From contig NZ_PDJK01000002.1 in assembly GCF_002564045.1 (NCBI RefSeq), forward strand, positions 806,001-870,000: DNA of 64,000 nt, written 5' to 3'. The stretch is from Amycolatopsis sulphurea. GTDB taxonomy: Bacteria; Actinomycetota; Actinomycetes; Mycobacteriales; Pseudonocardiaceae. Position 1 is the first letter of the stretch. Every line of letters starts with the position of its first letter. Positions 6,438 through 39,276 of this stretch are shown piece after piece. The notes under the pieces were generated by a model, which was not told where the DNA came from, made no database searches, and saw only the letters and a program-made list of their open reading frames with translations. Both the position numbers and the translations under genes were made by a program.

Positions 6438-6444
6438 GCAACCG

Positions 6445-6690
6445 GTCAGCAGTGCTCCTGCGTGCGGCAAGCCCTCGGCACTCCAGCAAGCGGTCAGCAG
6501 CACCCCAGCGAGCGGCAGACCCTCGGGTCAGCAGTGCTCCAGCGCGCGGCAAGCCCTCGACACTCCAGCAAGCGGTCAGCAGCACCCCAGCGAGCGGCAG
6601 ACCCTCGGGTCAGCAGTGCTCCAGCGCGCGGCAAGCCCTCCACGCTCAGCAAGCGATCAGCAGCACCCCAGCGCGCAGCAGACCCCCGGC
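6445..6690. repeat. 82-bp tandem repeat, three copies
   Basis: Units start at 6445, 6527 and 6609 with GTCAGCAGTGCTCC and each holds two related sub-units (CGGCAAGCCCTC and CGGCAGACCCTCGG). The spacing of 82 bp is not a multiple of three, so a coding repeat is unlikely. Copies 1 and 2 are nearly identical; copy 3 is more diverged. It begins 8 bp after the stop of the preceding gene. Confidence 0.85.
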
Positions 6691-6879
6691 GCTCCAGCAA
6701 GCGGCAGGCCGTCGGCGCTCCTGCTTGCGCACGAAGACACGACGCCGGCGGTGCTCGACTTCACCATGTTCGCCCACACGCTGGCCCGCGCGACCCTCAC
6801 AGCCGTTTACGAGAACAAGGGCTGAGCGCACCTCGCTGCGGCCTCCGGCTGTGAAGGGTCCCTTCACGGTCTCAGCGTC

Positions 6880-7164
6880 CAGGGTCCCGGCAAAGTTGGG
6901 TCGAGGCCCCGTGATCAGCAGAGAGTGCCCTGGCTGCCGCGTCATCATCGACGACACCTGCCCTCTTCGTCGATCACGCCCGGCAGCAGGCGAACCGGAG
7001 GTGTTCGAGACACGCGACCACCTCGCACTGTGCGCCAGACCTGTCCCGAAGTCGGTGTGAGGGGCCCTTCACAGACTCAGAGTCCGTGAAGGGCCCCTTC
7101 ACGGACCTTCACGAACCTCCGCGGTCTGCGCAGGGCCCCTCACACCGACTTTGCTGACACCCTG
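6880..7164. mobile_element. MITE-like element, copy B (285 bp)
   Basis: Best full-length copy of the element. The left end is CAGGGTCCCGGCAAAGTTGG and the right end reads, on the other strand, CAGGGTGTCAGCAAAGTCGG, an inverted repeat of about 20 bp continuing imperfectly to about 30. It shares most of its interior with copy A. Flanks GTCTCAGCGTC and GACTCTGATTC match at 7 of 11 positions, possibly a decayed target duplication. Extra GTGAAGGG(G/T)CCCTTCAC palindromes lie just outside at 6851-6867 and 7177-7193. The element has no coding capacity for a transposase. Confidence 0.75.
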
Positions 7165-7198
7165 GACTCTGATTCCGTGAAGGGGCCCTTCACAGACT

Positions 7199-7360
7199 TC
7201 AGCGCGGCTTCAGCAGGTAGTCCACGACCGGGCGCAGAATCTGCAGCCTCCGATGGAGACCCAGCCCGTGCCCCTGGCGGGGCGCGGCGGCGGTCGCTGT
7301 GGCCACCAGCGACCGTTCGGCCCCGAGCATTCCCCGCATCACAAACCTTGCCTTCACCTC
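7199..7360 (-). pseudogene. Possible 3' remnant of an unrecognised gene
   Basis: The minus frame from about 7360 to the TGA at 7199 has coding-like third positions and a plausible C-terminus (RRLQILRPVVDYLLKPR), but no start with a ribosome site and no recognisable family. It ends next to the palindrome adjoining MITE copy B, so it may be the stump of a gene cut by rearrangement. Chance openness in high-GC DNA cannot be excluded. Confidence 0.25.
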
Positions 7361-7414
7361 GGGGGTTGTCCCAGTCGGCGCTGGTGCGGACAGGTAAGCG
7401 GGCCAAGCCGGAGC

Positions 7415-7441
7415 GCCCCTTCCGGCCAAGCCGGAAGGGGC
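7415..7441 (-). terminator. Hairpin terminator after the DUF4396 gene
   Basis: Perfect 11-bp stem: GCCCCTTCCGG (7415-7425), loop CCAAG, CCGGAAGGGGC (7431-7441). It lies 8 bp beyond the stop codon of the DUF4396 gene. Confidence 0.7.
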
Positions 7442-7449
7442 ACCCGCGG

Positions 7450-7899
7450 TCAGTGGTGGTGCACAACGGCGTGGCCCAGGCCGCGGCCGATCATCCACCT
7501 GTTCACCGGCACCGTGAGCACGAAGGCGACGGCTAGGGAGATCGCCAGCGAGAGCCAGAACAGCCCGCTGGCGAGCCCCGCGTCCATCGCCCCCGGGATG
7601 GCCACGACGACGGTGTTGTCGACGACCTCCATCACCGCGATGGACACCGTGTCCGCGGCGAGCGCGACCTTGAAGGCGGCCGAGACACCGAGGCCGGTCT
7701 TGAGCACCCCGCGCATGGTGAGCGCGTAACCGAAGACGAACGCGAGCGCGATCGAGAGCACCACCGTGGCCGCGTTGTGCAGCCCGAACGCGGTGCCGAG
7801 GACCATGCCCAGCACTTCGCCGATCGCACAGCCGGTGAGGCAGTGCAGCGTCGCTTGGACAGCGGTGGCCCAGGATGCGCCGTGGCGAGTTTCGTTCAT
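7450..7899 (-). CDS. DUF4396 membrane protein
   Basis: A 149-residue protein with four to five hydrophobic helices that matches the DUF4396 type: an N-terminal helix with HCLTGCAIGEVLGM, a helix containing FVFGYALTMRG, and a C-terminal VNRWMIGRGLGHAVVHHH. DUF4396 proteins commonly accompany copper or heavy-metal resistance genes. The conserved Cys/His of the first helix and the His-rich tail would suit metal contact, but that is inference. The ATG at 7899 lies 10 bp downstream of a CsoR-like palindrome, and a hairpin terminator follows, so it appears to be a single metal-regulated transcript sharing its operator type with the next two genes. Confidence 0.75.
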   Translation of the reverse strand: MNETRHGASWATAVQATLHCLTGCAIGEVLGMVLGTAFGLHNAATVVLSIALAFVFGYALTMRGVLKTGLGVSAAFKVALAADTVSIAVMEVVDNTVVVAIPGAMDAGLASGLFWLSLAISLAVAFVLTVPVNRWMIGRGLGHAVVHHH

Positions 7900-7908
7900 C
7901 GGCTCACC

Positions 7909-7925
7909 ATACCCCCTCGGGGTAT
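7909..7925. promoter_or_regulatory. CsoR-like (copper-sensing repressor) operator
   Basis: The 17-bp inverted repeat ATACCCCCTCGGGGTAT sits directly before the DUF4396 start. G/C-tract dyads flanked by ATAC/GTAT are the known operator style of CsoR/RcnR repressors. A second copy at 8946-8962 precedes the neighbouring gene pair. No csoR gene is in the window. Confidence 0.65.
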
Positions 7926-7930
7926 ATAGA

Positions 7931-8455
7931 TCAGCCCTGCAGGCCGCGCATCGTGGTGATTTCCGCCTCCTGGGCGTCGGCGATCCGCCGTGCCATCGCC
8001 TTCGCCCCGGCGTCCTGGCCCTGCGCCAGCTCGGTCCGGGCCATCTCGACCGCGCCGGTGTGGTGCTCGATCATCAGGCGGAGCCACTCACGGTCGTAGG
8101 CGGCGTCCTTCAGCCGATCGAGACCGCCGGTGTCGACCATTCCGGGCATGGCACCCTGCCCCATGGAACCGTGGTCCATCGGTTCCGCGCCCCAGTCCCG
8201 GAGCCACTGGGCGAGCTGGTCGATTTCCGGCTGCTGGGCCTGCTCGATCCGCTGCGCCAGCTCGCGGACCTTCGGATTCCCGGTGTGCCGCGGAACGCCC
8301 GAGGACATTTCCACCGCCTGCCGGTGATGCGGGATCATGCCCTGGGCGAACGTGACGTCGGCGGCGTTGTGGCTTTCCTGCGCACCGCTCGAACACGAGA
8401 CGAGCACGGCGGCGAATGCGGGAAGCACAAAGCCCGCGAAGATTGTGCGATTCAT
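7931..8455 (-). CDS. DUF305 lipoprotein, probable copper-binding envelope protein
   Basis: A 174-residue exported lipoprotein with two ferritin-like DUF305 repeats. The ATG at 8455 is preceded by GAAGGAAA and begins a lipoprotein signal (FVLPAFAAVLVSC, lipid-modified Cys near residue 21). The repeats carry the hallmark metal motifs: FAQGMIPHHRQAVEM in the first and WLRLMIEHHTGAVEMA in the second. A Met/His-rich linker (MDHGSMGQGAMPGM) lies between them. DUF305 proteins are usually found with copper efflux or oxidation genes; periplasmic-side copper binding is the likely role. It lies downstream of the membrane-protein gene (59 bp gap) and probably shares the operator at 8946. Confidence 0.85.
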   Translation of the reverse strand: MNRTIFAGFVLPAFAAVLVSCSSGAQESHNAADVTFAQGMIPHHRQAVEMSSGVPRHTGNPKVRELAQRIEQAQQPEIDQLAQWLRDWGAEPMDHGSMGQGAMPGMVDTGGLDRLKDAAYDREWLRLMIEHHTGAVEMARTELAQGQDAGAKAMARRIADAQEAEITTMRGLQG

Positions 8456-26483: not shown

Positions 26484-27686
26484 TCAAGCTGTGAACTGAG
26501 TTAACAAGCCTTCGACGCTCCGTACCACCACGTGGGCAGCGGCTCGTTCGGCCAGTGGCCGGTCCGATCGTTCTGCCTCATGCCGCCAGCGAAGCACCGC
26601 GTCGAGTCCGGCTTCGTAAACCTCGCCGGGATCGGTGCCGGCTTCGAGACCGAGCCGTTCCTCGGGCGCCGTACCCTGCGCGCCGAGCAGCTGCGTCGCT
26701 TCTTCCGCCGGTTCGCCGGACAGCGCGGTCCGCCCACCCCGGATGTCGGCGATCAGGCGTAGCTCGCGGAAATCGTGCGCAGTCACGGAGAAGCGTTCGA
26801 CGCGGGCGGCCAGCCGGTCACTGTGGGGGCGAGGTTCGGCCTGCAGCACTGTCTCCAGACAGATCACGGCGGTCCGCGCGCGCAACGCGTCGGCGCGCGC
26901 GGCGAAACAGCCGGCGATCGTGTCCCTCAGTTCTCCCAGTCCGCTGCGGCGGACAAGCTCCGTCGACAGCTTCGGCCTGGTGTCACAACCCGTGCGAATC
27001 AGCGTGAGCGCGAGCTTCACACCAAAGAGGCCGAATCGCGTGACGAGAGAACGCCGGGTCTCTGCAGATACCGGCCCGGGGAAGGCAGGATCTACGAACG
27101 CGTCGACGGAAAGCAGGTGCCGTTCCAGCTCTTCGCGTGGCACCGCCGCGAAGGCGGCCAAGAGTTCGAATTCGTCGTTGGTGGACGCGCGTGCGCCGTA
27201 CGCGAGCTGCGCGGCTACAGCGATTACGCCTTGAAATCCGCTGCACAGCGGATCCTCGCGCCATGCGCGTCGTGCGAGCTGCTTCGCGGTGAGCAACGCG
27301 TCGATCCGTCCCGCGCCCGTCTCGTCAGAGCGCGCAAGCACCAGCACCATTTCAACGGCTGTCTGCCGCGCGAACGTCGAAGTCGCTGTCGGACGAAGCG
27401 TCGCCAACTCGTCCGGATCAAGGTGACGAAGCAGCCGTATGGACGCGTCGGTGAGCTTCGTCGGCGAAGGATCGTCAACCAGTTCGAGATCGCGAAGCGC
27501 CCGAGACGGCCAATCGCCGAGGGCTGCCGTGAGCGTGGATTTCCCCGTGCCCGCAGCGCCAGTGATACCCACACGTAACGGTTCGTCGAGATGGTCCAGC
27601 GCTTCGCGCAACAGAGCGGACGCACGTCGGCTGTCTCGATAGCACGCGTACGCGTCAGCCAGCAGCGCGCGAACGTCTTCGGTCAC
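26484..27686 (-). CDS. iniC: IniC-like P-loop GTPase
   Basis: A 400-residue P-loop protein that forms a pair with the next gene, as IniC does with IniA in mycobacteria. Walker A is GITGAAGTGKST (residues 39-50). The region after it (LELVDDPS) takes the place of the G3 motif, while a canonical NKxD is not evident, so this partner may bind nucleotide weakly. The rest is helical (LLRHLDPDELATLRP, VICLETVLQAEPRP). The start at 27686 overlaps the iniA-like stop by 4 bp (ATGA), indicating coupling and probably complex formation. In mycobacteria the iniBAC operon responds to cell-wall synthesis inhibitors; the same trigger is inferred here. Confidence 0.75.
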   Translation of the reverse strand: MTEDVRALLADAYACYRDSRRASALLREALDHLDEPLRVGITGAAGTGKSTLTAALGDWPSRALRDLELVDDPSPTKLTDASIRLLRHLDPDELATLRPTATSTFARQTAVEMVLVLARSDETGAGRIDALLTAKQLARRAWREDPLCSGFQGVIAVAAQLAYGARASTNDEFELLAAFAAVPREELERHLLSVDAFVDPAFPGPVSAETRRSLVTRFGLFGVKLALTLIRTGCDTRPKLSTELVRRSGLGELRDTIAGCFAARADALRARTAVICLETVLQAEPRPHSDRLAARVERFSVTAHDFRELRLIADIRGGRTALSGEPAEEATQLLGAQGTAPEERLGLEAGTDPGEVYEAGLDAVLRWRHEAERSDRPLAERAAAHVVVRSVEGLLTQFTA

Positions 27687-29455
27687 GCAGAAAGCTCCTT
27701 CGGTGCCCGTCCGGCCCGCAAGCCGAGTTCGCCCGCACGCTGGTGCAAGCCGGCCAGCCGGTCGATCTCGCGGCGCAACCGCGCGGTCCGGCGTTCCCGC
27801 TCGGCCGAACCGGCGATGATCGTCTCGCGCTCCCGTGCCAGCTCGTCGGCCAGATCCTCGGCGAGCGCGGTGAAATGGTCACGCAGCTTCCGCTGGACGT
27901 GCCGGATCGCATCCCGGCACTCCTTGCTGAACCGGAGGAAAACGTCGTCGACATGGCGTTGAGCGGTCATCTTCGCCACCGCCTGACGACGTTGCCGCCG
28001 CATCCCGCCCTCGTCGCTGATCGTCTTCGCGGCGAACGCCACCCCCGCGCCGAGCGAGATCGGGTTGATCAGCGGCAGTCCCGCCAGCCCGGTCACCAGG
28101 CCGAACATCAGCACCCCGCCGTAGGAACCGCGCAGCCCGGTGAACGCCTTCTGGCCGATCTTGAACCGTTCGATGCGCGGCTGCCGGACCTCCGCGATCC
28201 GGTCCGCGCCGGATTCGGGCGGCGTGACCCGATCCAGGTCGTACTGCACACCGAACGTCGCGGCCACCGCCTGCGCGATCCACTCCGCGCGCTCGGCAGT
28301 GAAGGTGTACGTGGTTTCGACGGCTTCCGCGAGCGCGCGGTCCAGCCACGGACCGAACTCGTCCCACACCTTCACCGGGTCACCGCGGTCGAAGGTCTCG
28401 TCGATCGTCTCCACGATCCGCCGGGTGCGCTCCCGAAGGTCGTACTCGGCGTCCGACTGCAGATCCGCGATCTCGTCGGAGAGCAGGTTCTGCCAGCGGC
28501 CGTTGCGGCGGCGCAGCTCGTCGGCCCGGCGCTGCGCGCGGTTGAGCAGCGTGGCCTGGTCGACGCCCACTTCCTGCCCGGCCTCCTCCGCGCGCAGCCG
28601 CAGCGCCTCCACCAGCTCGGCCGCCGCCGCCCGCACGCTCACCGCGGCCACCAGCGCCGACCGGTTCTCCGGCGGCCGCGACACCTGGCCGGCGATCCAG
28701 CCGAGCAGCTCCGGGAACCCGGACCGGGTGTTGAGCTCCTGGTCTCCCGCCTTCGCCGCGGCGAACCGGACCGTCGAGGACACCGGCAGCACCGCCGCGT
28801 CGATTCCGGACTCGGACAGCGCCGCACGATTCCGCTCCGCGACCGCCCGCCAGCCGGGACAGGCGTCGATCTTGGTCAACGCCACCACGACGTGCGGGCA
28901 CCAGGTGCGGACGTGATGCGCCAAGGCGAGTTCGGCCGCGCCGAGCACCGTGGTCGCGTCCGAGACGAGCACCACCGCGTCGGCCTCGGCCAGCACATCC
29001 AGCGCGGCCGCAGTACGCGGCGAACGGGGATCCCCGACAGCCGGCGTATCGACCAGCACCAGCCCCGCGGACAGCAGATCCCGCGGAACCCCGACCTCGA
29101 CCCTGCGCAGCGAACCGGCCGGCCGCGCGCCGACCTCCCCCGTCAACCGCTCGACCGGCACCGGAATGCGTTCGTCTGCACGCCCGACGAGCGTCGCACC
29201 AGGCTCAGCCGCGTAGCCGACTTCAACCGGCACTGCCGGAGTAGCCGCGTCGCCGACCGCGCAGACCGGCGCGTTCAGCACCGCGTTGACGAGATTGCCC
29301 TTGCCCTGCTTCGCGAACCCGAGCACGGCGATCCGGGTACCACCGGGCGCACGGTCGCGACGTCGGCGCAACCGCTGCACCAAGTCCGCACGGCCGTGCG
29401 TACGGCAGGCGTCCAAAGCCTCATCGAGTACTTCGAGCCAAGCAGGAGCCGTCAC
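27683..29455 (-). CDS. iniA: IniA-like dynamin-family GTPase
   Basis: Bacterial dynamin-like protein of 590 residues; mycobacterial IniA remodels and cuts membranes using GTP. The GTG at 29455 is chosen, with GGGGAG 11 nt upstream. G1 is GFAKQGKGNLVNAVL, where the Ser/Thr normally following GK is Gly; G3 is DTPAVGDP and G4 is LTKID. A long helical neck follows, with a coiled coil about residues 265-350. A hydrophobic hairpin (MFGLVTGLAGLPLINPISLG, about residues 445-465) is the likely membrane-inserting paddle. The C-terminus is a basic coiled coil. It is the middle gene of iniB-iniA-iniC, 110 bp after iniB and overlapping iniC. Confidence 0.82.
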   Translation of the reverse strand: MTAPAWLEVLDEALDACRTHGRADLVQRLRRRRDRAPGGTRIAVLGFAKQGKGNLVNAVLNAPVCAVGDAATPAVPVEVGYAAEPGATLVGRADERIPVPVERLTGEVGARPAGSLRRVEVGVPRDLLSAGLVLVDTPAVGDPRSPRTAAALDVLAEADAVVLVSDATTVLGAAELALAHHVRTWCPHVVVALTKIDACPGWRAVAERNRAALSESGIDAAVLPVSSTVRFAAAKAGDQELNTRSGFPELLGWIAGQVSRPPENRSALVAAVSVRAAAAELVEALRLRAEEAGQEVGVDQATLLNRAQRRADELRRRNGRWQNLLSDEIADLQSDAEYDLRERTRRIVETIDETFDRGDPVKVWDEFGPWLDRALAEAVETTYTFTAERAEWIAQAVAATFGVQYDLDRVTPPESGADRIAEVRQPRIERFKIGQKAFTGLRGSYGGVLMFGLVTGLAGLPLINPISLGAGVAFAAKTISDEGGMRRQRRQAVAKMTAQRHVDDVFLRFSKECRDAIRHVQRKLRDHFTALAEDLADELARERETIIAGSAERERRTARLRREIDRLAGLHQRAGELGLRAGRAPKELSA

Positions 29456-29565
29456 GACGAAGAAGTCTCCCCTAGGCACAGGGAGTATCGGAAGCCGGTA
29501 GGTGGCTCCGCAAGCTGAGTTACGCCCACGAAGCCACCTCCGGCGCGCCGCTACTCAGCGTACGT

Positions 29566-30495
29566 TCAGAAGGAAAGGTGCAGCTCGCCGCTGTGCGAGG
29601 TTTCGGCGCCGGCGTGCAGGTCCGAGCCGGGGCCCTGGTGTGCGACATCCGGAACCTGCGAGACGGTGTCGTGGACGGCGCCAACCCCCGCGTCAGCGCC
29701 GTGCTGCGAGGACTCGCTCCCCCAGTCCGGTGCGGTGTGCGTAAGCGCCTGGACCTGGTGCGTCGCAGCGTCCGCGACGTGGTTCACGCCCTGCGCGCTG
29801 AGCGCCCCCGACAAGCTGCCGACGTTCTGGGTCGCCGTGCCGGCCAAGTCGCTGCCGTGCCCAGCCACGCCACCGCCGGCGTCGGTGAGGTGACCCGCGG
29901 CCTGAGCCGCGTCGACGGCGCCTGGAGACGCTGGGGTCGCTGGAGCCGCAGCACCAACCTCGCCGACCGCATGCTGAACCTGGCCGACCGCACCAGCGGC
30001 CCGCGCGACCGGCGCGGCGTCCAGTCCGTGAGACAGATCGCCACCAAGCCCGAACACACTGCCCGGCTGCTGCGCGAGTGCGGCGGCCGACGCTGCCGCG
30101 TTCTGCAGCTCACCGTTCTGGATCTCACTGTTCTGCAGCTCACCGGCCCCGGGCACCGACGGCAGGTCGCCTGCCGAAGGCAGCGAAGGTTCGCCGACCG
30201 CGGGAAGGCCGAGCGACGCGGTGAGCGCGTGCAGCTGGTCGATGGCACCCTGCGGTCCATCCACGGCGGCACCGGTCAGGTCACCCGCCGCGGGCACCTG
30301 TCCGAGCGCGGCCGGGCTGCCGGCCGGAACGTAGTCGAGCACCAGCGAGAGAACCTCCCGCACGTCGGCGGCGCTGATGTCGCCCAGCCCGGCGGCGGCG
30401 AGCGCCGACTGCGGGTCCTGGCCGAATGCGGCCAGCGCGGCGGGATCGCGGAGCAGGGTGAGCGTGAAGTCGTGCAGGGTCTGCACCGGGTTCAT
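29566..30495 (-). CDS. iniB: IniB-like protein with Gly/Ala-rich tail
   Basis: A 309-residue protein whose first 60 residues form the IniB N-terminal domain (TLHDFTLTLLRDPAALAAFG, then DPQSALAAAGLGDISAADVR). The remainder is low-complexity, Ala/Gly/Val/Gln-rich with repeated QNSEIQNGELQNAA and HQVQAL-like pieces, like the glycine-rich tail of mycobacterial IniB. The ATG at 30495 has GGAG 9 nt upstream. There is no signal peptide. It heads the iniBAC-like operon and is divergent from the Hsp70-like gene, with a 300-bp shared promoter region (30496-30797) that contains GTTTACACCC but no clear consensus promoter. Confidence 0.8.
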   Translation of the reverse strand: MNPVQTLHDFTLTLLRDPAALAAFGQDPQSALAAAGLGDISAADVREVLSLVLDYVPAGSPAALGQVPAAGDLTGAAVDGPQGAIDQLHALTASLGLPAVGEPSLPSAGDLPSVPGAGELQNSEIQNGELQNAAASAAALAQQPGSVFGLGGDLSHGLDAAPVARAAGAVGQVQHAVGEVGAAAPATPASPGAVDAAQAAGHLTDAGGGVAGHGSDLAGTATQNVGSLSGALSAQGVNHVADAATHQVQALTHTAPDWGSESSQHGADAGVGAVHDTVSQVPDVAHQGPGSDLHAGAETSHSGELHLSF

Positions 30496-30797
30496 GGCGG
30501 GGATCTCCACTTGTCGTGTTTACCGGGACACCCGGACCTCCCCGGCCAGGCTGGCGGTCAAGGTAGGCCGGGGACACCCCTGCTCACATCGGGGTTTACA
30601 CCCAGTCGCGCCTCGCTCAGCCGTTAGGGGGTCGATATGAGATCGTTAGGGAGGTAGGGACTCGGACACGCGGAACCCGGTCGGGTTAAATCCCCTCCCA
30701 CCCTTGCCCGGCCCTCTCGTCCGAGTGAGGATGCTGTACCCGTTCCGTGATTGCGCCCTCTGACCCGGCCATGCAGCGACGAAGGGAGGAAGCGGCG

Positions 30798-32324
30798 GTG
30801 CCCCACGTGCTCGGCATCGACATCGGCCCGGCCCGGACCCACGCCGCGACCCGGCGCAGGCAGGGCGGGCAGTGGACCGCTCCGGAACCGTTGTGGCTGG
30901 GCGAAACCACCCCCGCGACCGCGACCGCGCTCTTCCTCGACGACGAGGGCTACCTGATCACCGGCGACGCGGCCGTCCAGGAAGGGGCCGCGATTCCATC
31001 CCGCCTGACGACCGGCTTCCACCGCCGCATCGGCGACGACGTCCCGGTTTTCGTCGGCGGTACCCCGTTCACCCCGGAATCCTTGACCACGGTCGTGGTG
31101 GAGGGCGTCGCCGACCTCGCGGGCAACGGCCCACCCCGGCACCTCGTTGTCACCCACCCGGGTGACTGGGGCGGGTACCGCCGCGAACTCCTGCGTCGCA
31201 CACTGACCGGCGCCGGCTTCCCCGCGGTGACCCTCGTACCGAGCGCCGTCGCCGCCTTGCACGCCCACCTCCCGGACCCCGGCCAGGGCGAACGAACCGC
31301 CGCAGTATGCGAATTCGGCCCCGACGGCGTCACCGTCACCCTGGCCACGTCGTCGGCTACCACCAGCTGGTTCTCCCGCAACAGCACCGAAGGCGTCGCC
31401 CCGACGGCTGCGGTAAGCAGCGCATTCTCCTTGGCACAGAGCGCAAACGTCGCCCCCGACGCCCTGTCCGGCATCGTCTTCTGCGGCGACCCCGGCCCCG
31501 GCGCGCTCCCGGGACGGCTGCCCTGCCCGGTTTTCGTCGGGCCGCAACCGGCCCTCACCGCAGCGCTGGGCGCCGCCGCCCTGGCCGCACACCGGACCGC
31601 TACGCCCACCCAGCAGCACCGCGTCTCCCAGCGCTCCACCGGTCCGCGCCCCGGCACTGCCCAGACCGGCTCCTCCGTCGATCACCCGAATGCCCCAGCC
31701 CAGAACGACGATCTCCCCGCCCGGCCCAGCACACTCGTCGACGATCGCCCGGGCACCACGCACCGCCAGACCGGCGACCTCGCCGAGCCGAACCCCCGCG
31801 CAGCCAAGAAGACCGGCTCCCCCACCGAAAAACGCCCTGCCCTACCGGCCGACGACACCGACCAACGCGCCCGCACCGCCCGGCAACCCGGCGACACCGC
31901 GGACAAGCGGCCCCGAAAGACCGGCAAGCCCGCCGACCGGCCCACCGCCGTTGCCCAGCACCATTCCGGCGCCCTCACCCCGCACCGCGCCGGTACCCCC
32001 GCACAGCCCGAACCGGCGGCCGCGGAGACCATCCTGCTCCCGCGCGTCGACGACCCCGCCGATCTCCCCGAACGGCCCGAACGGCCGCCGGTCGAGATCA
32101 CCCCGTTCGAATTGCCCGAGCCGGAAGGTTTCGCGAAGCTCTTCCGCCGCTGGCGTCCGCTCGTCGCCACGGCCGCGGTGCTCGCGATCGCCGCGTCGGT
32201 CGTGATCGCCATCCTCACGTCGCACCCCGCGACAGCCGACCGGCAACCCGGCTCTCCCCCTCCCCCTGCCCCGAGTTCGTGCAACCGCCCGGCCACGGCT
32301 CCCACCGGTGAAGGTCACTGTTGA
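30798..32324 (+). CDS. Hsp70/actin-fold ATPase-like membrane protein
   Basis: A 508-residue protein. The GTG at 30798 is chosen for GGGAGG 8 nt upstream. Residues 1-275 are an Hsp70-like nucleotide-binding fold: HVLGIDIGPARTHAA (phosphate 1), LVVTHPGDWGGYRRELLRRT, AVCEFGPDGVTVTLA (phosphate 2) and GIVFCGDPGPG (adenosine). No substrate-binding domain follows; instead there is a Pro/Thr/basic linker of about 160 residues, a transmembrane helix (VATAAVLAIAASVVIAILTS) and a short external tail with one Cys. The orientation is cytosolic ATPase with a C-terminal anchor. It overlaps the LuxR gene by 4 bp and is divergent from iniBAC, suggesting a sensing role for that envelope-stress locus. Confidence 0.72.
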   Translation: MPHVLGIDIGPARTHAATRRRQGGQWTAPEPLWLGETTPATATALFLDDEGYLITGDAAVQEGAAIPSRLTTGFHRRIGDDVPVFVGGTPFTPESLTTVVVEGVADLAGNGPPRHLVVTHPGDWGGYRRELLRRTLTGAGFPAVTLVPSAVAALHAHLPDPGQGERTAAVCEFGPDGVTVTLATSSATTSWFSRNSTEGVAPTAAVSSAFSLAQSANVAPDALSGIVFCGDPGPGALPGRLPCPVFVGPQPALTAALGAAALAAHRTATPTQQHRVSQRSTGPRPGTAQTGSSVDHPNAPAQNDDLPARPSTLVDDRPGTTHRQTGDLAEPNPRAAKKTGSPTEKRPALPADDTDQRARTARQPGDTADKRPRKTGKPADRPTAVAQHHSGALTPHRAGTPAQPEPAAAETILLPRVDDPADLPERPERPPVEITPFELPEPEGFAKLFRRWRPLVATAAVLAIAASVVIAILTSHPATADRQPGSPPPPAPSSCNRPATAPTGEGHC

Positions 32325-34843
32325 ACGCACTGCTGGCGAATACCGACACTGTGCACCCTGCCGCCCACCGTCTGCTCGCGGAGCACGACGCGTCCGTGAG
32401 CCCGGTGCGCCTGGTCGTCGTCGCCCCCGGCGGCTACGGCAAAACCGCCCTCCTCGGCGCGCTGGACCGCGGCTACCGAGCAGCCGGGGTGACCGCGACC
32501 GTGGTCGACGACGCGGACCAGCTCGACGACGAAGATCTCGCCAAGCTCACCGTCCTGGCTTCGTCCGCCGAAGGTCCCGTCGTGGTGGCCCACCGCCCGA
32601 ACCCGCGCGCCGACGCGTTGCGCGGCCTCGGCGAGACGTTCTTGCTTCCCCCCTTGGACGTCGACGAGGTCGCCGAACTCGCGCGCCACCTGACCGGCCG
32701 CGCGGTGGACCCCGACGCTGCCCTCGCGCTGCACACTGGCACCGGCGGCGTCCCGAGGCTCGTCGAACGCGTCGTGACGGACCGGCTGGAAGCCTTCCGC
32801 AGCGAATTGGCCGACCTGGCCGAGGACGTCCTCCACTACCTGATCGCGTCCGAAGCCGGAGCAAGCCGCAACCTGGATTTGTTGTGCGCACTGCTGAATT
32901 GCTCACCCGACGCGTTGCCGGCAGTCGTGGACGGCGCCCGCGCCACTGGCCTGCTCGACCACGAAGACGCCTTGCTGCCCGTAGCCGCACAAGCCGTGCG
33001 CGGCTACGCACCCCCCGCGCGGCGCCTGGCTGTCGTACAGCAACTGGTGGAAGCCCAGCTACGACAAGGCCTGCCGATCCTGGACCTCGCACGCTCGTTG
33101 CTGGACGCAGGCAGCTCCGGTGCTTCGGCGGCCACCGCATTCGCCACCGCCGCCCAAGAAGCCCTATCCAGTGACACAATCCTGGCCGCGCGGCTCTTCG
33201 AGGCCGCCGCCGACGCAGGCGCCCGCGACGCGACGACCACTATCGGCTGGGCCCGAGCCGCCGCGTTGTCCGGAGATTTGGACACCGCCCTCCGCCTCGG
33301 CGACGGCATGCTGTCCGGCGACGACCCGGAATCCCGTGCCGCAGGAGCGGAAATAGCCGCGACGGTCCTCGCCCACCGAGGCGAACTGGCCCGGAGCGCA
33401 GAGCTGTACCACTGGGCCGCGACCCTCACTCCGCACGACGCTCGTCCGTCCGGCGCCACACACAACCCGGCGCACGATGCTGATCGGCAGCGTCCCTTCC
33501 ACGCTGAAGACCCCGCATCCCGTTCTCCACAAGAGTTTCCGGTAAACGACCGATGGGCAGGTCCCGGCGCCGTCACCGCGTTCGCCGCGATCGCCCTCGT
33601 CGGCACAGGGCAACGCGGTGAAGGCCAGTCACTCGCGAAAGCACCGGCGCCCGGAGTCGCGCCGACCTTGTTCACCGGCGCCGTGGCGCGGACCGCGAAC
33701 GGCATCGTGGAATCGGTGACCGGGTACGGAACCGAAGCGTTGCCCGAACTCGTCGGCGCCGCGACAATGCTCGAACCCGCCTTCGCCGGATCGCCCTTGC
33801 CGGACAGCCCCGCCGCGCTGGCCGCGCTCGCCGGACTGCATTCAGGCGAGCTGGCACTGGCGGAATCGGTACTGGACCGGGCTCTTTCCCACGGCGTCGG
33901 CGGTGCCTTGCTCGCGCCCCGCCATCGCCTCCTGCTCGGTTGGGTGGCCATGACCGGCGGTGATCTCGCCACGGCAGCCGAACACCGCGACGCCGCCGCG
34001 GGCATGAAGCTGGAAGCCCGCGACGAACTGTTTTTCGCCACGCTGGAACTCGGCCTGGCCCGGCGGGCGAGCGACCTCGCCGGCCTGCAACGCTCGTGGG
34101 ATCGCGCGTACCAGGCATCGATGCGCCAGCAGGTGGATCTCTTCACTCTGCTGCCGCTGGGCGAGCTGGCGATCGCGGCCGCCCGGACCGGCGCGCAGGC
34201 CAAAATCCGGCACCGGCTCGAACGCGCGCACGCCATGCTCGACCACCTCGATAACCCTCCTTTGTGGACAGTCTCGCTACACTGGCACGAACTGCATGCG
34301 GCGATCACCTCGGAGGACCGGCCCGGCGCCGAACGCCACCTGTCGGCACTGACCCGGTTCGCCGGCTCCGGACGCTATCCCGCGGCCCTGGCCGACGCCG
34401 CGAAGTGCTGGCTCGCCGTGATCAGCGGCAGCTTCGACCCCCGCGAGACGGCCGAGGCCGCCGCGGAACTCCACGAACTCGACCTCTGCTGGGATTCCTC
34501 CCGCCTGGCCGGGCAGGCCGCGATCCGCACCTCCGACCGCAAGGCGATGGTCCAGCTCCTGGAAGCCGCCCGCCAATTCCAAGGCACCGCGGGCCGTCCC
34601 GAATCTGCCACCGCGGTGGCCGGCACCGCCCATGGACTGAGTGCCTTGAGCGAGCGGGAACTGGAGGTCGCCCGGCTCGTCGTGGACGGCCTGACCTACA
34701 AGCAAGCCGGCAGCAAGCTGTTCATCTCGGGCAAGACCGTCGAGCACCACATGGCCCGCATCCGCGGCAAACTCGGCTCCGCGGACCGGCGGGAGCTCCT
34801 GTCCACCCTGCGCGAGCTGCTCGACAAGCCCACCAACCCCTGA
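32321..34843 (+). CDS. Large LuxR-family regulator with N-terminal ATPase (IniR-like)
   Basis: An 840-residue STAND/LAL-type regulator. The TTG at 32321 overlaps the previous stop (TTGA), with GAAGG 6 nt upstream. Walker A is VVVAPGGYGKTALLGALDRG and the Walker B-like acidic strand is ATVVDDADQLDDEDL. A long helical-repeat region (residues 250-760) follows, and a C-terminal LuxR helix-turn-helix (LSERELEVARLVVDGLTYKQ, FISGKTVEHHMARIR). Size and position beside iniB match mycobacterial IniR (Rv0339c), which activates iniBAC. Control of the divergent iniB promoter is therefore likely. It converges with pstB, 32 bp between stops. Confidence 0.8.
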   Translation: MNALLANTDTVHPAAHRLLAEHDASVSPVRLVVVAPGGYGKTALLGALDRGYRAAGVTATVVDDADQLDDEDLAKLTVLASSAEGPVVVAHRPNPRADALRGLGETFLLPPLDVDEVAELARHLTGRAVDPDAALALHTGTGGVPRLVERVVTDRLEAFRSELADLAEDVLHYLIASEAGASRNLDLLCALLNCSPDALPAVVDGARATGLLDHEDALLPVAAQAVRGYAPPARRLAVVQQLVEAQLRQGLPILDLARSLLDAGSSGASAATAFATAAQEALSSDTILAARLFEAAADAGARDATTTIGWARAAALSGDLDTALRLGDGMLSGDDPESRAAGAEIAATVLAHRGELARSAELYHWAATLTPHDARPSGATHNPAHDADRQRPFHAEDPASRSPQEFPVNDRWAGPGAVTAFAAIALVGTGQRGEGQSLAKAPAPGVAPTLFTGAVARTANGIVESVTGYGTEALPELVGAATMLEPAFAGSPLPDSPAALAALAGLHSGELALAESVLDRALSHGVGGALLAPRHRLLLGWVAMTGGDLATAAEHRDAAAGMKLEARDELFFATLELGLARRASDLAGLQRSWDRAYQASMRQQVDLFTLLPLGELAIAAARTGAQAKIRHRLERAHAMLDHLDNPPLWTVSLHWHELHAAITSEDRPGAERHLSALTRFAGSGRYPAALADAAKCWLAVISGSFDPRETAEAAAELHELDLCWDSSRLAGQAAIRTSDRKAMVQLLEAARQFQGTAGRPESATAVAGTAHGLSALSERELEVARLVVDGLTYKQAGSKLFISGKTVEHHMARIRGKLGSADRRELLSTLRELLDKPTNP

Positions 34844-34875: not shown

Positions 34876-35694
34876 TCAGCCGAACCGTCCGTGGACGTAA
34901 TCGGCGGTACGCGAGTCGACGGGTGAGTCGAACACCTGGCTCGTGTCGCCGTGTTCGACGATCGCGCCAGGGGTGCCCTCCTCGGCGAGGAAGAACGCGC
35001 ACTGGTCCGATACCCGCTGCGCCTGCTGCATGTTGTGCGTGACGATGACGATGGTGACCTCGCTGGTCAGGTCCGCGATCGTCTCCTCGATCCGGCGGGT
35101 CGAGGTCGGGTCGAGCGCCGAGCACGGTTCGTCCATCAGCAACACCGTGGGCCGCACGGCGAGCGACCGCGCGATGCACAGCCGTTGCTGCTGCCCACCG
35201 GACAAGGCGCCGCCGGGTTGCCGGAGCCGGTCGCGCACTTCCCGCCACAGTCCCGCGCGGGTCAGGCATTCCTGCACCAGATCGTCGCGTTCGTCCCGGC
35301 GCACCTTGGTTCCGGTGAGCTTGAGACCGGCCGTCACGTTGTCGTAGATGGACATCGCGGGGAACGGGTTGGGCTTCTGGAACACCATCCCGATGTGACG
35401 GCGAACCTCGGTCAGCTTCCATACCGAGTCGTAGATGTCGACTTCCCCCAGCAGCACCTCGCCGGCCAGCGAAGCGCCCGGGATCAGCTCGTGCATCCGG
35501 TTCAGGGTGCGCAGGAACGTGGACTTGCCGCAGCCGGACGGGCCGATCAGCGCGGTGACCGACTGCGCGGGCATCGTCAGCGACACCCGGTCGAGCACCT
35601 TGTGGTCGCCGAACCACGCCGACACCGCGCGGGCCTCCAGCGTCGCGGCGTCGTTTTCGGCCTCGACGGCGTCGAAGGGCTGCGTGATGGTCAC
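34876..35694 (-). CDS. pstB: Phosphate-type ABC transporter ATPase PstB
   Basis: A 272-residue ABC ATPase of the PstB family that powers the PstCA channel. Motifs: Walker A GPSGCGKSTFLRTLNRMHE, Q-loop VFQKPNPFPAMSIYDNV, signature LSGGQQQRLCIARSLA, Walker B VLLMDEPCSALDP and H-loop IVIVTHNMQQA. The family-typical ELIPGA and FPAMSIYDNV are present. The GTG at 35694 is preferred because GGAGG lies 5 nt upstream; an ATG at 35706 has no such site. It is the last gene of the 14.5-kb array and is separated from pstA by nine envelope genes, which is abnormal for Pst operons, where pstB follows pstA. The transported ligand need not be phosphate. Confidence 0.87.
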   Translation of the reverse strand: MTITQPFDAVEAENDAATLEARAVSAWFGDHKVLDRVSLTMPAQSVTALIGPSGCGKSTFLRTLNRMHELIPGASLAGEVLLGEVDIYDSVWKLTEVRRHIGMVFQKPNPFPAMSIYDNVTAGLKLTGTKVRRDERDDLVQECLTRAGLWREVRDRLRQPGGALSGGQQQRLCIARSLAVRPTVLLMDEPCSALDPTSTRRIEETIADLTSEVTIVIVTHNMQQAQRVSDQCAFFLAEEGTPGAIVEHGDTSQVFDSPVDSRTADYVHGRFG

Positions 35695-35708
35695 TTCTTC
35701 CTCCATGG

Positions 35709-36626
35709 TCACAACAGGTTCGGCAGCAGCGAAGCGATCGAGTCGGCGACTGCGAGGCCCAGCGCACCCAGCACGGGCACCCCGATCACCCACGCCGGCC
35801 ACATACCGAGCCGCTGATGCGTGTAGACCACGCCGCCCGCCGACAGCAGCATGACCAGCGCCCAGCCGACAACCGGGATCAGCGCCCCCTCGTCACCGGC
35901 CATCAGCTGCTCCGAGTCGGGCAGCGCGTAAGCGGGCAGCCTGCCGCTGGCCTCAACGGCAGGGGTGATCAGCTGGGCGTCCACGCGCAGCACATCGCTC
36001 GGCAGGTAAGGCGGTCCGTCGGCGGTGACCAGCGTGAGCCTGCCGTCGGTCTTGCCGGGCGCGGCGACCTGCGGGTCGTTCGCGTGCCGTACGCCGATCA
36101 CCCGGAACTGGTGCATGCCCTGGCCGGTGGTCACGGTGATCGGATCACCACGCTTGAGCTCCCCGATCCTCTGGAACGGCCCGCCGTACGCGGCCCGCCG
36201 GGCCAGCACGACGCTGACCCCGACCTGTCCCGGCAGCACGGTGTCACGCAGGTGCCCGGGGCCGGATTTCAGTGCGCCGGGCGAAGTTCCCTCGCCCACC
36301 ACTTCTTCCACACCCAGCTGGGGAATCGAGAGCACCGCGACCGGCGTGCCGGACGGGAGCAGGCGCCCGTCCGAATCCAGCGAGGCGACCGGCGCGGTCG
36401 CGTTGGCGAGCCGGTCGCGGAACTCGGCGAAGTTCCGGTCCTGGTCCCGATTGTGCTGCAGCCCCCCGATCAGGACGAGCTGCGCCAGCAGGCTCAGCGC
36501 GAGCACCCCGAGGATCGTCAACGCGTGCGCGGCGATCCGCGTCCCCGCCCGTCCAGGGGGCGCGGATCCGCCGGGTTGTTCGGGCGCGCTTGGCGGGGCG
36601 GGCGGGGCCGGGTCGGTAACGGTCAT
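35709..36626 (-). CDS. Sortase-fold protein lacking catalytic Cys and His (pseudo-sortase)
   Basis: A 305-residue membrane protein: N-terminal Pro-rich tail, helix (ALTILGVLALSLLAQLVLIG), sortase beta-barrel (residues about 85-225) and two C-terminal helices, similar to class E/actinobacterial sortases. The catalytic Cys of TLxTC is Ala: LTLVTADGPPY, codon GCC. The His of the AGHR/YG motif is Arg: VVLARRAAYGGPF. The partner Arg (DVLRVDAQL) remains. It therefore cannot transpeptidate by the known mechanism. The start ATG at 36626 overlaps the stop of an LASTG-protein gene (ATGA). Its two neighbours carry LASTG tails, so it may bind sorting signals or act as scaffold; that is inference. Confidence 0.8.
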   Translation of the reverse strand: MTVTDPAPPAPPSAPEQPGGSAPPGRAGTRIAAHALTILGVLALSLLAQLVLIGGLQHNRDQDRNFAEFRDRLANATAPVASLDSDGRLLPSGTPVAVLSIPQLGVEEVVGEGTSPGALKSGPGHLRDTVLPGQVGVSVVLARRAAYGGPFQRIGELKRGDPITVTTGQGMHQFRVIGVRHANDPQVAAPGKTDGRLTLVTADGPPYLPSDVLRVDAQLITPAVEASGRLPAYALPDSEQLMAGDEGALIPVVGWALVMLLSAGGVVYTHQRLGMWPAWVIGVPVLGALGLAVADSIASLLPNLL

Positions 36627-37426
36627 TCCGGCCACGCCGATCGCGCGACCTCGCGCCGGCGTCGCGTCACCAGCACGGCGAGAACGCCGGCACCGAGCAA
36701 CCCGAGCCCGGCGAGCGTGAGCAGTCCGGCCGGGACTCCAGTGCTGGCCAGCTTCTTGTCACCAGGGTTGCTGGGGGTGTCGCCGCCCGAACCGGGGGGC
36801 GTCGTGTCCGTCGGCGCGACGCCGCCGGGATCCGTGCTGGTGTCCGACTCGGTCGTGCTCGTGGTGGTCTCCGGGTCCGAGGTCGGCGGCTCGGTGGGCG
36901 TGGTGGTGCTGGTCTTTCCGCTGGAACTGGTCGTGGTCGTGGTGGTGGTCGGCGGCGAGGCGGGATCCGTGACCGTGTAGTGCGTCGCGTCGGTGAACCA
37001 CAGCGGCATCGTGAAAGTGCCCTTCACCTCCTGCGAGAACCCGTCCACGCAGTGGGCCACGATGTCGTAGCGGCCCGGCTGCACCGTGCCCTGGTGGTCG
37101 ACGGCGATGTCCTTGAAGGACAGTCCTTGGAAGATGGGGAAACCGGCGTCGTGCGCGATGCCGACATCTGTGGTCGTGGTCCCGATCAGGCCGGGCTCGA
37201 ATACCCCGGGACCGTAGATGAACAGGTTGTACGAGTCGGCGTCGGACGGGCACCCCGCCGAGGTCGTGTAGTGCGGCGCGTTGACATCTGTGCCCTTCTT
37301 GGCGATGTCCTCGACGGTCAGCGTGCCGAGCGTGGCCGCCGGCACCGCGGCCTGGGCGACCCCGAACATGGTGCCGGCCGCGGCGAGCAGGCTGAGCAGG
37401 GCCAGGGCGGCTCCGCGCTTACGCAT
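36623..37426 (-). CDS. LASTG-tailed surface protein 1 with shared Cys domain
   Basis: A 267-residue exported protein. The ATG at 37426 has GGAAGG upstream. Order: signal peptide (RGAALALLSLLAAAGTMFGV), an about 120-residue domain shared with three neighbours (TSAGCPSDADSYNLFIYGPG, IGTTTTDVG, FQGLSFKDIAVD, HCVDGFSQEVKGTF, WFTDATHY), a Thr/Ser/Pro stalk, then a sorting signal: LASTG, hydrophobic helix and RRRREVAR tail. The two Cys of the domain (SAGCP and HCVD) likely form a disulfide outside the membrane. LASTG is an LAxTG motif of class E sortases. The gene overlaps both neighbours, so strict co-translation is likely. Confidence 0.82.
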   Translation of the reverse strand: MRKRGAALALLSLLAAAGTMFGVAQAAVPAATLGTLTVEDIAKKGTDVNAPHYTTSAGCPSDADSYNLFIYGPGVFEPGLIGTTTTDVGIAHDAGFPIFQGLSFKDIAVDHQGTVQPGRYDIVAHCVDGFSQEVKGTFTMPLWFTDATHYTVTDPASPPTTTTTTTSSSGKTSTTTPTEPPTSDPETTTSTTESDTSTDPGGVAPTDTTPPGSGGDTPSNPGDKKLASTGVPAGLLTLAGLGLLGAGVLAVLVTRRRREVARSAWPE

Positions 37427-38579
37427 GACGTTCCTTCCGGTTGCGGCGGGCGAACAACACAGTGACGATGCCGGCGCCGAGCAGCCCGACCCCGGCCAGC
37501 GCGAGGTAGCCGACGGGGACACCGGTGCTGGCCAGGCCCGGCCTGTCGATCGTGGTGCCGACCGTCTGCGCCCCGGCGCCACCGCTGGTGTTTGTTCCGG
37601 TGCCGTCGGGGGCGAGCGCGCTGGTGCTCGAACCCGTCGTTGTGGTGGTCTCGCTCGACGACGACGTGGTGTCGCTGGTCGAGGTCGTGCTGGAGGTGCT
37701 GGTAGCGGACGCCGACGTGCCCGTACTGGACGTGGCCGTCGAGGTGCTGGGGCGCGTCGTGGTCGTCGTGGTGCTGGAGGACGGCGGTGTGCTGGTGGGT
37801 GTCGTGGTCGGCTCGGTCGGAGTCGTGGACGACGTGGAGGTCGTGATCGTCGTCGTAGTAGTCGTTGGCTCAGTCGTCGTGGTCGTCGGCTCCGTTGTGG
37901 TGGGCTCCGTGGTGGTCGGCTCCGTTGTAGTCGGCTCCGTCGTCGTGGTGGTCGTGGTCGGCTCGGTTGTCGTGGTGGTCGTCGTCGGCGGAGTCGTCGT
38001 GGTCGGCTCCGTTGTCGAGGTTGTCGCAGTCGGCTCGGTCGTGGTGCTCGTCGGCTGAGTCGTGGTAGTCGGCTCGGTCGTCGTGCCGGTCGTGGTGGTC
38101 GTCGTCGTGGGCGGCGCAGCGGGGTCGGTGTCCTGGTAATGCGTTGCGTCGGTGAACCACAGCGGCATCGTGAAAGTGCCGATGACCTCCTGCGAGAACG
38201 AGTCCACGCAGTTGACGACCACGTCGTAGCGACCGGCCTGCACGGTCGTCTGGTGATCGGTCGCGATGTCCTTGAACGACAGGCCCTGGAAGATCGAGAA
38301 GCTCGACGTGTGCGAAAGACCCACGTCGGTCGTCGTCGTCCCGATCAGGCCGGGGGCGAAGCCACCCGGTCCGTGGACGTAGAGGTTGTACCCGTCGGCC
38401 GTGTCGGGGCAGCCCGCGGAGGTCACGTAGACAGGGGCGTGCACATCCCGCCCGGTGGCCGGCGACGCGGACAGCGAGCCGAGGGTGGCCTCGGGTGTGG
38501 CCGCCGCCGCGACGGTCACCGCGGTGCCGGCGATCACCAGCAGGCCGAGCCCGGCGAGTGCCACCTGGCGCTTTCTCAT
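37419..38579 (-). CDS. LASTG-tailed surface protein 2 with long Thr-rich stalk
   Basis: A 386-residue paralogue of surface protein 1. Signal peptide (RQVALAGLGLLVIAGTAVTV), the shared domain (TSAGCPDTADGYNLYVHGPG, IGTTTTDVGLS, FQGLSFKDIATD, NCVDSFSQEVIGTF, WFTDATHYQDTDP), a stalk of about 180 residues made largely of TTTTEPT repeats, then LASTGVPVGYLALAGVG and a basic tail. The start ATG at 38579 has AGGAG 9 nt upstream. The long, probably glycosylated stalk would carry the domain beyond the outer layer, whereas the short stalk of protein 1 keeps it near the membrane. The gene overlaps protein 1 by 8 bp. Confidence 0.82.
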   Translation of the reverse strand: MRKRQVALAGLGLLVIAGTAVTVAAAATPEATLGSLSASPATGRDVHAPVYVTSAGCPDTADGYNLYVHGPGGFAPGLIGTTTTDVGLSHTSSFSIFQGLSFKDIATDHQTTVQAGRYDVVVNCVDSFSQEVIGTFTMPLWFTDATHYQDTDPAAPPTTTTTTTGTTTEPTTTTQPTSTTTEPTATTSTTEPTTTTPPTTTTTTTEPTTTTTTTEPTTTEPTTTEPTTTEPTTTTTEPTTTTTTITTSTSSTTPTEPTTTPTSTPPSSSTTTTTTRPSTSTATSSTGTSASATSTSSTTSTSDTTSSSSETTTTTGSSTSALAPDGTGTNTSGGAGAQTVGTTIDRPGLASTGVPVGYLALAGVGLLGAGIVTVLFARRNRKERHA

Positions 38580-38601
38580 CTTCTTCGTCTCCTAGGGTGG
38601 A

Positions 38602-39276
38602 TTACTCGGGCCGGGACCGGCGTCTGCGCATGACCACCGCGAGGACCACGGCGGCCACGGCGAGCGCGATCGCGGCGACGAACAGGAACGGCTGCAGCCA
38701 ACCGTCCATCGTGGACTGATCGGGCTTTCCCGCGGCGATCGGCGCCGTGCTGCTCGTCGCGTGTCCGTCGCCGGAACCGGTTCCCGCGGCACCGGGCGCG
38801 ACGGTGCCCGGCGCGGCACTGCCCTCGGGCGCGCTGGGCGGCGGCATCTCCAGCTCCGCGCGCGGCGACATCGTGTTGGGGCCCTTGGCATCGCCGAGCG
38901 CGGCGTAGCGGCCCGGCGCGGAAACCCGGATGGTGCCGGCGAACTCGACCTTGTGCTCCTGCGAGAACGAGTCGACGCAGTACACCGACACCTGGTAGTC
39001 ACCGGTGAACGTGGTGTTGGCGTCCGCCGCGAAGTCGTGCAGCGTCTCCGACGGGTACACGTCGAAGCCCTGCTTGCGCGACATACCGGCGCTGGTGGTC
39101 GCGGTGATGACCACTCCGTCCTTCGGCAGACCGTGGCCACGCATGACGGCGTTGTAAGCGTCCGCGCCCGCGGGGCACCCACCGCTGGTGTGCAGCTTCA
39201 TCGGAGCGGCGTCGGCGCTGTCTCCCGGCGTGACAACCAGGCCCGCCGTGCGCAGGGGCTCATTCGGCGTCAGCAT
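38602..39276 (-). CDS. Membrane-tailed protein with shared Cys domain but no signal peptide
   Basis: A 224-residue protein holding a divergent copy of the shared domain (HTSGGCPAGADAYNAVMRG, ITATTSAGMS, YCVDSFSQEHKVEF), a Pro/Ser-rich linker and one C-terminal helix (FLFVAAIALAVAAVVLAVVM) with a basic RRRRSR end. The ATG at 39276 has GGAGGAGG upstream and the frame is closed by TGA just before, so no signal peptide can be added. Mature-domain homologues start at the same point only after their signal. It overlaps the DUF916 gene by 17 bp in another frame. Export by an unknown route, an error, or a cytosolic role are all possible. Confidence 0.7.
   Translation of the reverse strand: MLTPNEPLRTAGLVVTPGDSADAAPMKLHTSGGCPAGADAYNAVMRGHGLPKDGVVITATTSAGMSRKQGFDVYPSETLHDFAADANTTFTGDYQVSVYCVDSFSQEHKVEFAGTIRVSAPGRYAALGDAKGPNTMSPRAELEMPPPSAPEGSAAPGTVAPGAAGTGSGDGHATSSTAPIAAGKPDQSTMDGWLQPFLFVAAIALAVAAVVLAVVMRRRRSRPE

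Follow-up and report, generated by a model that had tools for sequence, protein, structure and literature searches.

The window analysed here, a stretch of 64,000 nucleotides from Amycolatopsis sulphurea (contig NZ_PDJK01000002.1, positions 806,001 to 870,000), contains an iniBAC gene cluster, the gene of an IniR-like regulator and, between iniB and iniR, a gene for an Hsp70-like protein. It is tentatively proposed, with slightly less than even confidence, that this catalytically dead and often membrane-anchored Hsp70 nucleotide-binding-domain protein (hereafter pseudo-Hsp70) is a dedicated partner that holds or licenses the MalT-like STAND activator IniR. The observed basis consists of the gene pair, the coupled reading frames, the fold, the catalytic loss, a conserved peptide, a partially distributed anchor and repeats in the shared promoter region. 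The gene set and coordinates agree with those of the original prediction, which had been made from the DNA letters and had seen in the Hsp70-like protein a membrane ATPase passing a signal to the regulator. Its description of the two genes as a divergent pair applies to their position relative to iniB, iniA and iniC on the minus strand, but not to each other, since both run on the plus strand.

By sequence, the window protein matched no Pfam family at E values up to 1, so that PF00012 was not found in it. This family was matched by 35 of the 42 members of a family alignment (the window protein and 41 relatives from fetched loci), and the family profile recovered the DnaK structure 2v7y at 7.2e-52. 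In the AlphaFold model, residues 1-270 mostly exceed 90 in the predicted local distance difference test (pLDDT), and a helix is placed at 451-473. The first 267 residues of the model match Hsp70 nucleotide-binding domains (Foldseek, 3.5e-14), and its superposition on the Hsp70 nucleotide-binding domain 3d2e_B gave a Z score of 28.6 and a root-mean-square deviation of 2.4 over 260 residues. Structure match and family profile concur, and the protein, as modelled, has the Hsp70 nucleotide-binding-domain fold. The lack of a substrate-binding domain, already claimed in the original prediction, is borne out by the model, in which residue 270 is followed only by a linker of low confidence, a single helix and a tail of 34 residues. 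Relative to the DnaK of the same genome, residues of about 189-219 and 224-287, which make up most of the second lobe, are missing as well from all eight proteins of the window's genus.

The nucleotide site of the protein has changed as well. Alignment to DnaK revealed that the catalytic lysine is kept in a single copy (locus L034) among 127 located directly upstream of iniR. In all eight members of the window's genus, DnaK K70, D194 and T199 are replaced by H, E and G; the phosphate-2 Asp has become Glu, the Thr Gly, and the adenosine-site Gly either Glu or Asp. The phosphate loop rich in Gly is G-P-D or G-T-D-like in this genus. Nucleotide-site glycines are retained in most families. The lysine is kept in six of six Hsp70s at loci where iniR lies elsewhere, behind iniC, and in three of three loci from other families of the class whose sequence covers this part of the gene (L215, L217 and L218). 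The Hsp70s of further loci with iniR elsewhere, and of three loci outside the order, have intact motifs, the partial L215 showing the first two. Because the catalytic residues are lost, the Hsp70-like protein is probably not an ATPase, and the enzymatic part of the original prediction is not supported. A dead enzyme kept beside one regulator fits a binding partner.

The linkage to iniR was surveyed in 100 genomes of the window's family, with a threshold for IniR of at least 200 bits. IniR was detected in 78 genomes, at 96 loci, and the Hsp70-like gene was found directly upstream, on the same strand and within 2 kb, at 72 of these. At 15 more it lay within 20 kb, and at nine no Hsp70-like gene was detected within 20 kb, several of these loci being situated on short contigs. 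Since the same neighbour, one among thousands of genes, recurs at 72 of 96 loci, the pairing is far above chance. A family Hsp70 profile gave a match of 2.9e-108 or better in 73 of the 78 IniR genomes, the remaining five being four of the window's genus, which have an adjacent copy of divergent sequence, and a single genome of 74% completeness. The best match among the 22 genomes without IniR was no better than 7.7e-99, a split that is partly by construction, as the profile was built from IniR loci. A fetched set of 100 IniR loci (one per genus where possible, second copies, and other families of the order) gave, together with the window, 80 loci with the gene directly upstream on the same strand, nine with it elsewhere in the stretch and 12 without it.

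For mycobacteria, 80 named loci were used, which were the best matches to a slow-type query; M. marinum, M. tuberculosis, BCG and the M. smegmatis locus are outside these counts, and slow-type species were grouped by name, growth rate and higher IniR identity. The upstream copy occurs at all 48 loci that are not of the slow type and whose upstream sequence is long enough for evaluation. The neighbourhood conservation that the original prediction had proposed to look for is thus present in the window's family and in mycobacteria other than the slow type. The two frames are also closely coupled. In the window the TTG start of the IniR-like gene lies over the stop of the pseudo-Hsp70 gene in a 4-bp overlap (TTGA, 32321-32324), as previously noticed, and an overlap of the NTGA type is found in 56 of the 127 adjacent pairs, with a start within 30 nucleotides of the stop in 58 more.

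The regulator itself has as its best NCBIfam match NF038181 (5.1e-116, 389 bits). The curated cut-off of 750 bits is not reached, nor is it passed in any of the 100 genomes of the window's family. The protein shows the features of IniR, namely a P-loop nucleoside triphosphatase (NTPase) domain, MalT-like helical repeats, a LuxR helix-turn-helix (HTH) and a position in the arm divergent from iniB. Its model, with a mean pLDDT of 88.5, is that of a STAND protein containing helical repeats; the best PDB match is the STAND protein 6mfv at 3.1e-07, and the predicted NOD NTPase with sensor repeats places it in the STAND/MalT type. IniR of M. marinum and M. tuberculosis is reported to activate iniBAC and to respond to trehalose (PMC5760070). 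Boot et al. 2017 (PMC5760070) conclude that passage of trehalose through the inner membrane is probably not required, and that sensing therefore lies outside it.

A membrane helix was called by hydropathy in about 91 of the 127 iniR-adjacent copies, a count that is too high by at least one because the call at L050 is a strand of the nucleotide-binding domain. The helix occurs in 8/8 members of the window's genus, 61/62 mycobacterial copies and 4/4 of group f16, in 18/45 of the other f1 copies, and in 0/7 of f15 and 0/1 of f3. The anchor of the original prediction is predicted for the window, at residues 451-473, but judging from these calls it is not a general feature of the family. The tail behind it is, with 34 residues, too short for a usual outward sensor domain; its two cysteines are retained in 8/8 genus members. 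In some mycobacteria, two or three Hsp70-like copies surround iniBAC, before iniR, after iniR and beyond iniC (L115, L116, L118, L122, L149, L164, L171 and others), and the outward tails of these proteins, rich in Pro and Thr, are longer, with roughly 120-200 residues.

Just before the helix lies a peptide of the RPPVEITPLxLP type, which occurs both in copies with an anchor and in those without one. No row of the 42-member alignment departs from its Arg-Pro, and 111 of the 127 adjacent copies have the looser pattern RPx[hydrophobic]x[hydrophobic]. This pattern was not found in the three intact copies whose tails were covered (L035, L076 and L081). The peptide is a candidate docking element.

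The shared promoter region provides a further conserved feature. Between iniB and the Hsp70-like gene, TTAGGG occurs on the strand of the latter at 125 of 130 loci. These regions contain 247 copies, where 7.4 would be expected and none of 20 shuffles gave more than 12; the other strand has five, with 3.7 expected. The boxes are commonly spaced by 8 and 22-25 bp in f1, and by 15 and 17-18 bp in mycobacteria. The window has TTAGGG at 30624-30629 and 30646-30651 and TAGGG at 30655-30659; the two complete boxes are the only ones in the whole 64 kb, and GTTAGGGNNNTAGGG, at 30645-30659, is unique in the 6.86-Mb genome. Slow-type mycobacteria without an adjacent Hsp70 have TTAGGG between iniB and iniR at 23 of the 28 iniB genes divergent from iniR. 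At the second-copy iniR-iniB loci L031, L033, L089 and L127 no such box was found, and L090 has one. Because they are present in the slow type and missing at those four loci, the boxes go with IniR and the main iniBAC locus rather than with Hsp70. A strong IniR peak directly before iniBAC is reported by Boot et al. (PMC5760070). The TTAGGG direct repeats are a candidate operator to which IniR would bind. Two other conserved words on the Hsp70 strand of these regions, ATCGGGG (38/50 other f1 loci, 7/7 f15 and 8/8 of the window's genus) and GGTACGAA (20/50 other f1 loci and 7/7 f15), are perhaps promoter parts.

The role of a partner that holds or licenses IniR is suggested because a dead enzyme is made in step with the regulator, has a conserved peptide and often carries a membrane helix. 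Partner control is plausible because STAND proteins can be held inactive by partners, as MalY does with the activator MalT (PMC10427625); MalT is also bound by the maltose uptake system (PMC5760070, discussion). The pseudo-Hsp70 would be expressed along with IniR, from the arm that diverges from iniBAC, and would keep IniR resting near the membrane, probably through its fold and the RPPVEITPLxLP-type peptide. A report of damage, from the envelope or from the IniB/IniA/IniC machine, might then lead the pseudo-Hsp70 to release or license IniR, which would assemble on the TTAGGG direct repeats and drive iniBAC as well as the arm that encodes it. What we infer here is the physical interaction with its sign, the signal, and the binding of the repeats by IniR.

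Several observations weigh against a partner dedicated to IniR. The upstream copy is present at none of the 17 evaluable slow-type mycobacterial loci, where IniR apparently works with no Hsp70 next to it, and no reading frame at the loci examined carries both profiles as a fusion. About 36 of the 127 adjacent copies, among them all seven of f15, have no membrane helix. Catalytic loss is not confined to the iniR neighbourhood, as 61 mycobacterial copies that do not adjoin iniR are likewise degenerate; in a tree (short search, unrooted) the non-adjacent mycobacterial copies group with the adjacent mycobacterial ones. The Hsp70-like gene was found at 91 of the 92 fetched loci with iniA or iniC (the exception is L126), a number that includes four copies lying, by coordinates, just outside the fetched stretch (L064, L065, L068 and L073) and one locus, L065, known from iniC only. 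Second iniR-iniB loci exist without iniA or an adjacent Hsp70 (L031, L033, L089, L090 and L127), and an intact Hsp70 stays divergent from iniB where iniR sits elsewhere. Absence of the gene from most iniBAC loci, which the original prediction had named as part of the evidence against itself, is not the case. The second iniR-iniB pairs, such as that at L090 (8616-9443, with iniR at 6001-8313), lack iniC as well; they occur in the window's genus too, and are possibly a separate IniR-like circuit.

The association of the Hsp70-like gene with iniA/iniC is as tight as that with iniR, and therefore a second explanation is retained as the main rival, although it is rather unlikely. It regards the protein as an accessory of the IniA/IniC dynamin-like machine, acting in assembly, membrane placement or disassembly, and the adjacency to iniR as operon layout. 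The presence at 91/92 iniA/iniC loci agrees with such an accessory, and so does the lack of the gene where iniR occurs without iniA, at six loci of f1 and one of f11. Outside the order, IniR was detected in five of 74 genomes of the same class. Among the four such loci fetched, L215 and L218 have Hsp70 divergent from iniB and iniR behind iniC, Hsp70 follows iniC at L217, and the stretch of L216 ends before the Hsp70 side. Loci with iniR behind iniC and those of two other families of the class keep an intact Hsp70 divergent from iniB or after iniC, and at 14 of 15 evaluable slow-type mycobacterial loci the copy that survives is found on the far side of iniC; both arrangements favour the accessory role. 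Such a role leaves unexplained, however, the start-to-stop coupling to iniR, which is within 30 nucleotides in 114 of 127 pairs, and the catalytic loss in 126 of the 127 iniR-coupled copies.

As the gene also tracks iniA/iniC, the pseudo-Hsp70 may report the state of the IniA/IniC membrane machine, by analogy with MalK, the maltose-uptake subunit that binds MalT. An attractive, though unrooted, scenario would be that iniBAC originally had an active Hsp70, which decayed after its coupling to iniR. In a bolder form of the partner proposal, the dead, often anchored Hsp70 fold would be the missing signal-receiving subunit of IniR, converting outside damage or the state of IniBAC into IniR activation, and would descend from an active, iniBAC-tied Hsp70; taken as a whole, this is a possible account in which confidence is low.

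A further alternative, in which the Hsp70 fold binds ATP without hydrolysis and reports to IniR the ATP surge seen with cell-wall drugs, is improbable. Apart from the fold itself, it can draw on a correlation of the ATP surge with iniBAC promoter activity in BCG (PMC6104191). Most families keep the nucleotide-site glycines, but binding is doubtful in the window's genus, where the phosphate loop and the adenosine-site Gly are altered and the second lobe is mostly missing. Moreover, BCG, itself outside the surveyed set, is a slow grower, and the upstream copy is absent from all 17 slow-type loci. An ordinary Hsp70 chaperone sitting there by chance and folding IniR or other proteins has the fold and the intact relatives at other iniBAC loci in its favour, but is highly improbable and was rejected, as the substrate-binding domain is missing, and so are the catalytic Lys, the phosphate-loop Asp and Thr and, in the window's genus, most of the second lobe.

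Table 1. Features of the iniBAC-iniR locus in the window (positions of the 64,000-nucleotide stretch; aa, amino acids).
Feature	Position	Strand	Remarks
iniC-like gene	26484..27686	-	N-terminal P-loop kept; G domain shortened by ~80 residues; 4-bp overlap with iniA
iniA, dynamin-like GTPase	27683..29479	-	Dynamin_N at gathering score; phmmer 3.6e-89 to M. smegmatis IniA 6j72
iniB	29566..30495	-	ATG at 30495; NCBIfam IniB_NTERM 1.3e-20, 73 bits (cut-off 40)
Candidate IniR operator, direct repeats	30624..30659	+	Conserved TTAGGG; repeats at 22 and 8 bp
Pseudo-Hsp70 gene, 508 aa	30798..32324	+	GTG start; ribosome-binding GGGAGG 30784-30789
Predicted Hsp70 nucleotide-binding-domain fold, residues 1-270	30801..31610	+	Predicted model and structure matches
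Conserved C-terminal peptide RPPVEITPFELP, candidate docking motif	32082..32117	+	R and P invariant in 42/42
Predicted membrane helix, residues 451-473	32151..32219	+	Prediction
Short Pro/Ser/Thr-rich tail, 34 aa, presumably outward	32220..32321	+	Two cysteines common to 8/8 genus members
IniR-like STAND activator: P-loop NTPase, helical-repeat domain, LuxR HTH (34643-34801)	32321..34843	+	TTG start

The features of the locus are collected in Table 1. A longer Hsp70-like frame from 30747 was dropped, the conserved start being the GTG behind GGGAGG. The IniB N-terminal domain and the dynamin-like GTPase IniA identify the cluster as iniBAC. The iniC-like match of the window's genus measures 394-397 aa against a median of 475, and G1 is the sole motif found in the eight proteins checked, none of which has a full IniC G domain. 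Decay has thus affected both the IniC partner, about 80 residues shorter and left with the P-loop motif alone, and the Hsp70 of this genus. Beyond iniR lies a convergent gene for a PstB-like phosphate ATP-binding cassette ATPase (34876-35802; 342.3 bits against a curated PstB cut-off of 343.2), and a class E-type sortase gene is found beside the genes of two surface proteins that are rich in Thr and carry a C-terminal signal of the LASTG type (35709-38633).

The iniBAC-IniR system is known, and so is a dnaK-like neighbour in M. smegmatis; the conservation, the catalytic loss, the proposed role and the TTAGGG repeats appear to be new. In open-licence papers, no proposed role was found for the iniR-adjacent Hsp70-like gene, no TTAGGG operator for iniBAC or IniR, and no description of the family-wide conservation and catalytic loss. 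The original prediction had taken the link to be undescribed for mycobacteria. Boot et al. 2017 (PMC5760070) do mention, for M. smegmatis, a dnaK-like gene on the downstream side of iniR, but leave its function unassigned. It is probably a member of the same gene family as the pseudo-Hsp70. These results bear on the route from envelope damage to IniR, as sensing was put outside the inner membrane by Boot et al., yet IniR has the appearance of a STAND protein that is soluble. The conserved partner gene, the candidate docking peptide and the candidate operator make IniR sensing directly testable in M. smegmatis. As slow-type mycobacteria have no iniR-adjacent copy, work in them may miss the pseudo-Hsp70. 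A pseudo-Hsp70 that controls a STAND protein would, if confirmed, put the Hsp70 fold to an unusual use.

With the nucleotide-binding domain of Hsp70/DnaK, the window protein shares the fold; it differs in having no substrate domain, in the loss of catalytic residues and in an added membrane helix, and in the window's genus most of the second lobe is gone. The mycobacterial iniBAC-IniR system (PMC5760070) has in common with the window the divergent iniR and iniB arms, the dynamin-like IniA, the IniB N-terminal domain and the STAND/LuxR regulator. The window differs in the additional pseudo-Hsp70, whose gene lies between iniB and iniR and is translated with the latter, in an IniR of 389 bits (750 for NF038181) and in the shortened G domain of iniC. 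The dnaK-like gene of M. smegmatis is reported downstream of iniR, whereas the pseudo-Hsp70 gene of the window lies upstream. A parallel for the proposed control is MalT of Escherichia coli with its inhibitory partners MalY and MalK. MalT boxes are direct repeats, and a STAND activator, helical repeats, a LuxR HTH and direct-repeat boxes are common to both systems, for which control by a partner is proposed here as well; in the window this partner would have an Hsp70 fold and share an operon with the regulator that it would contact.

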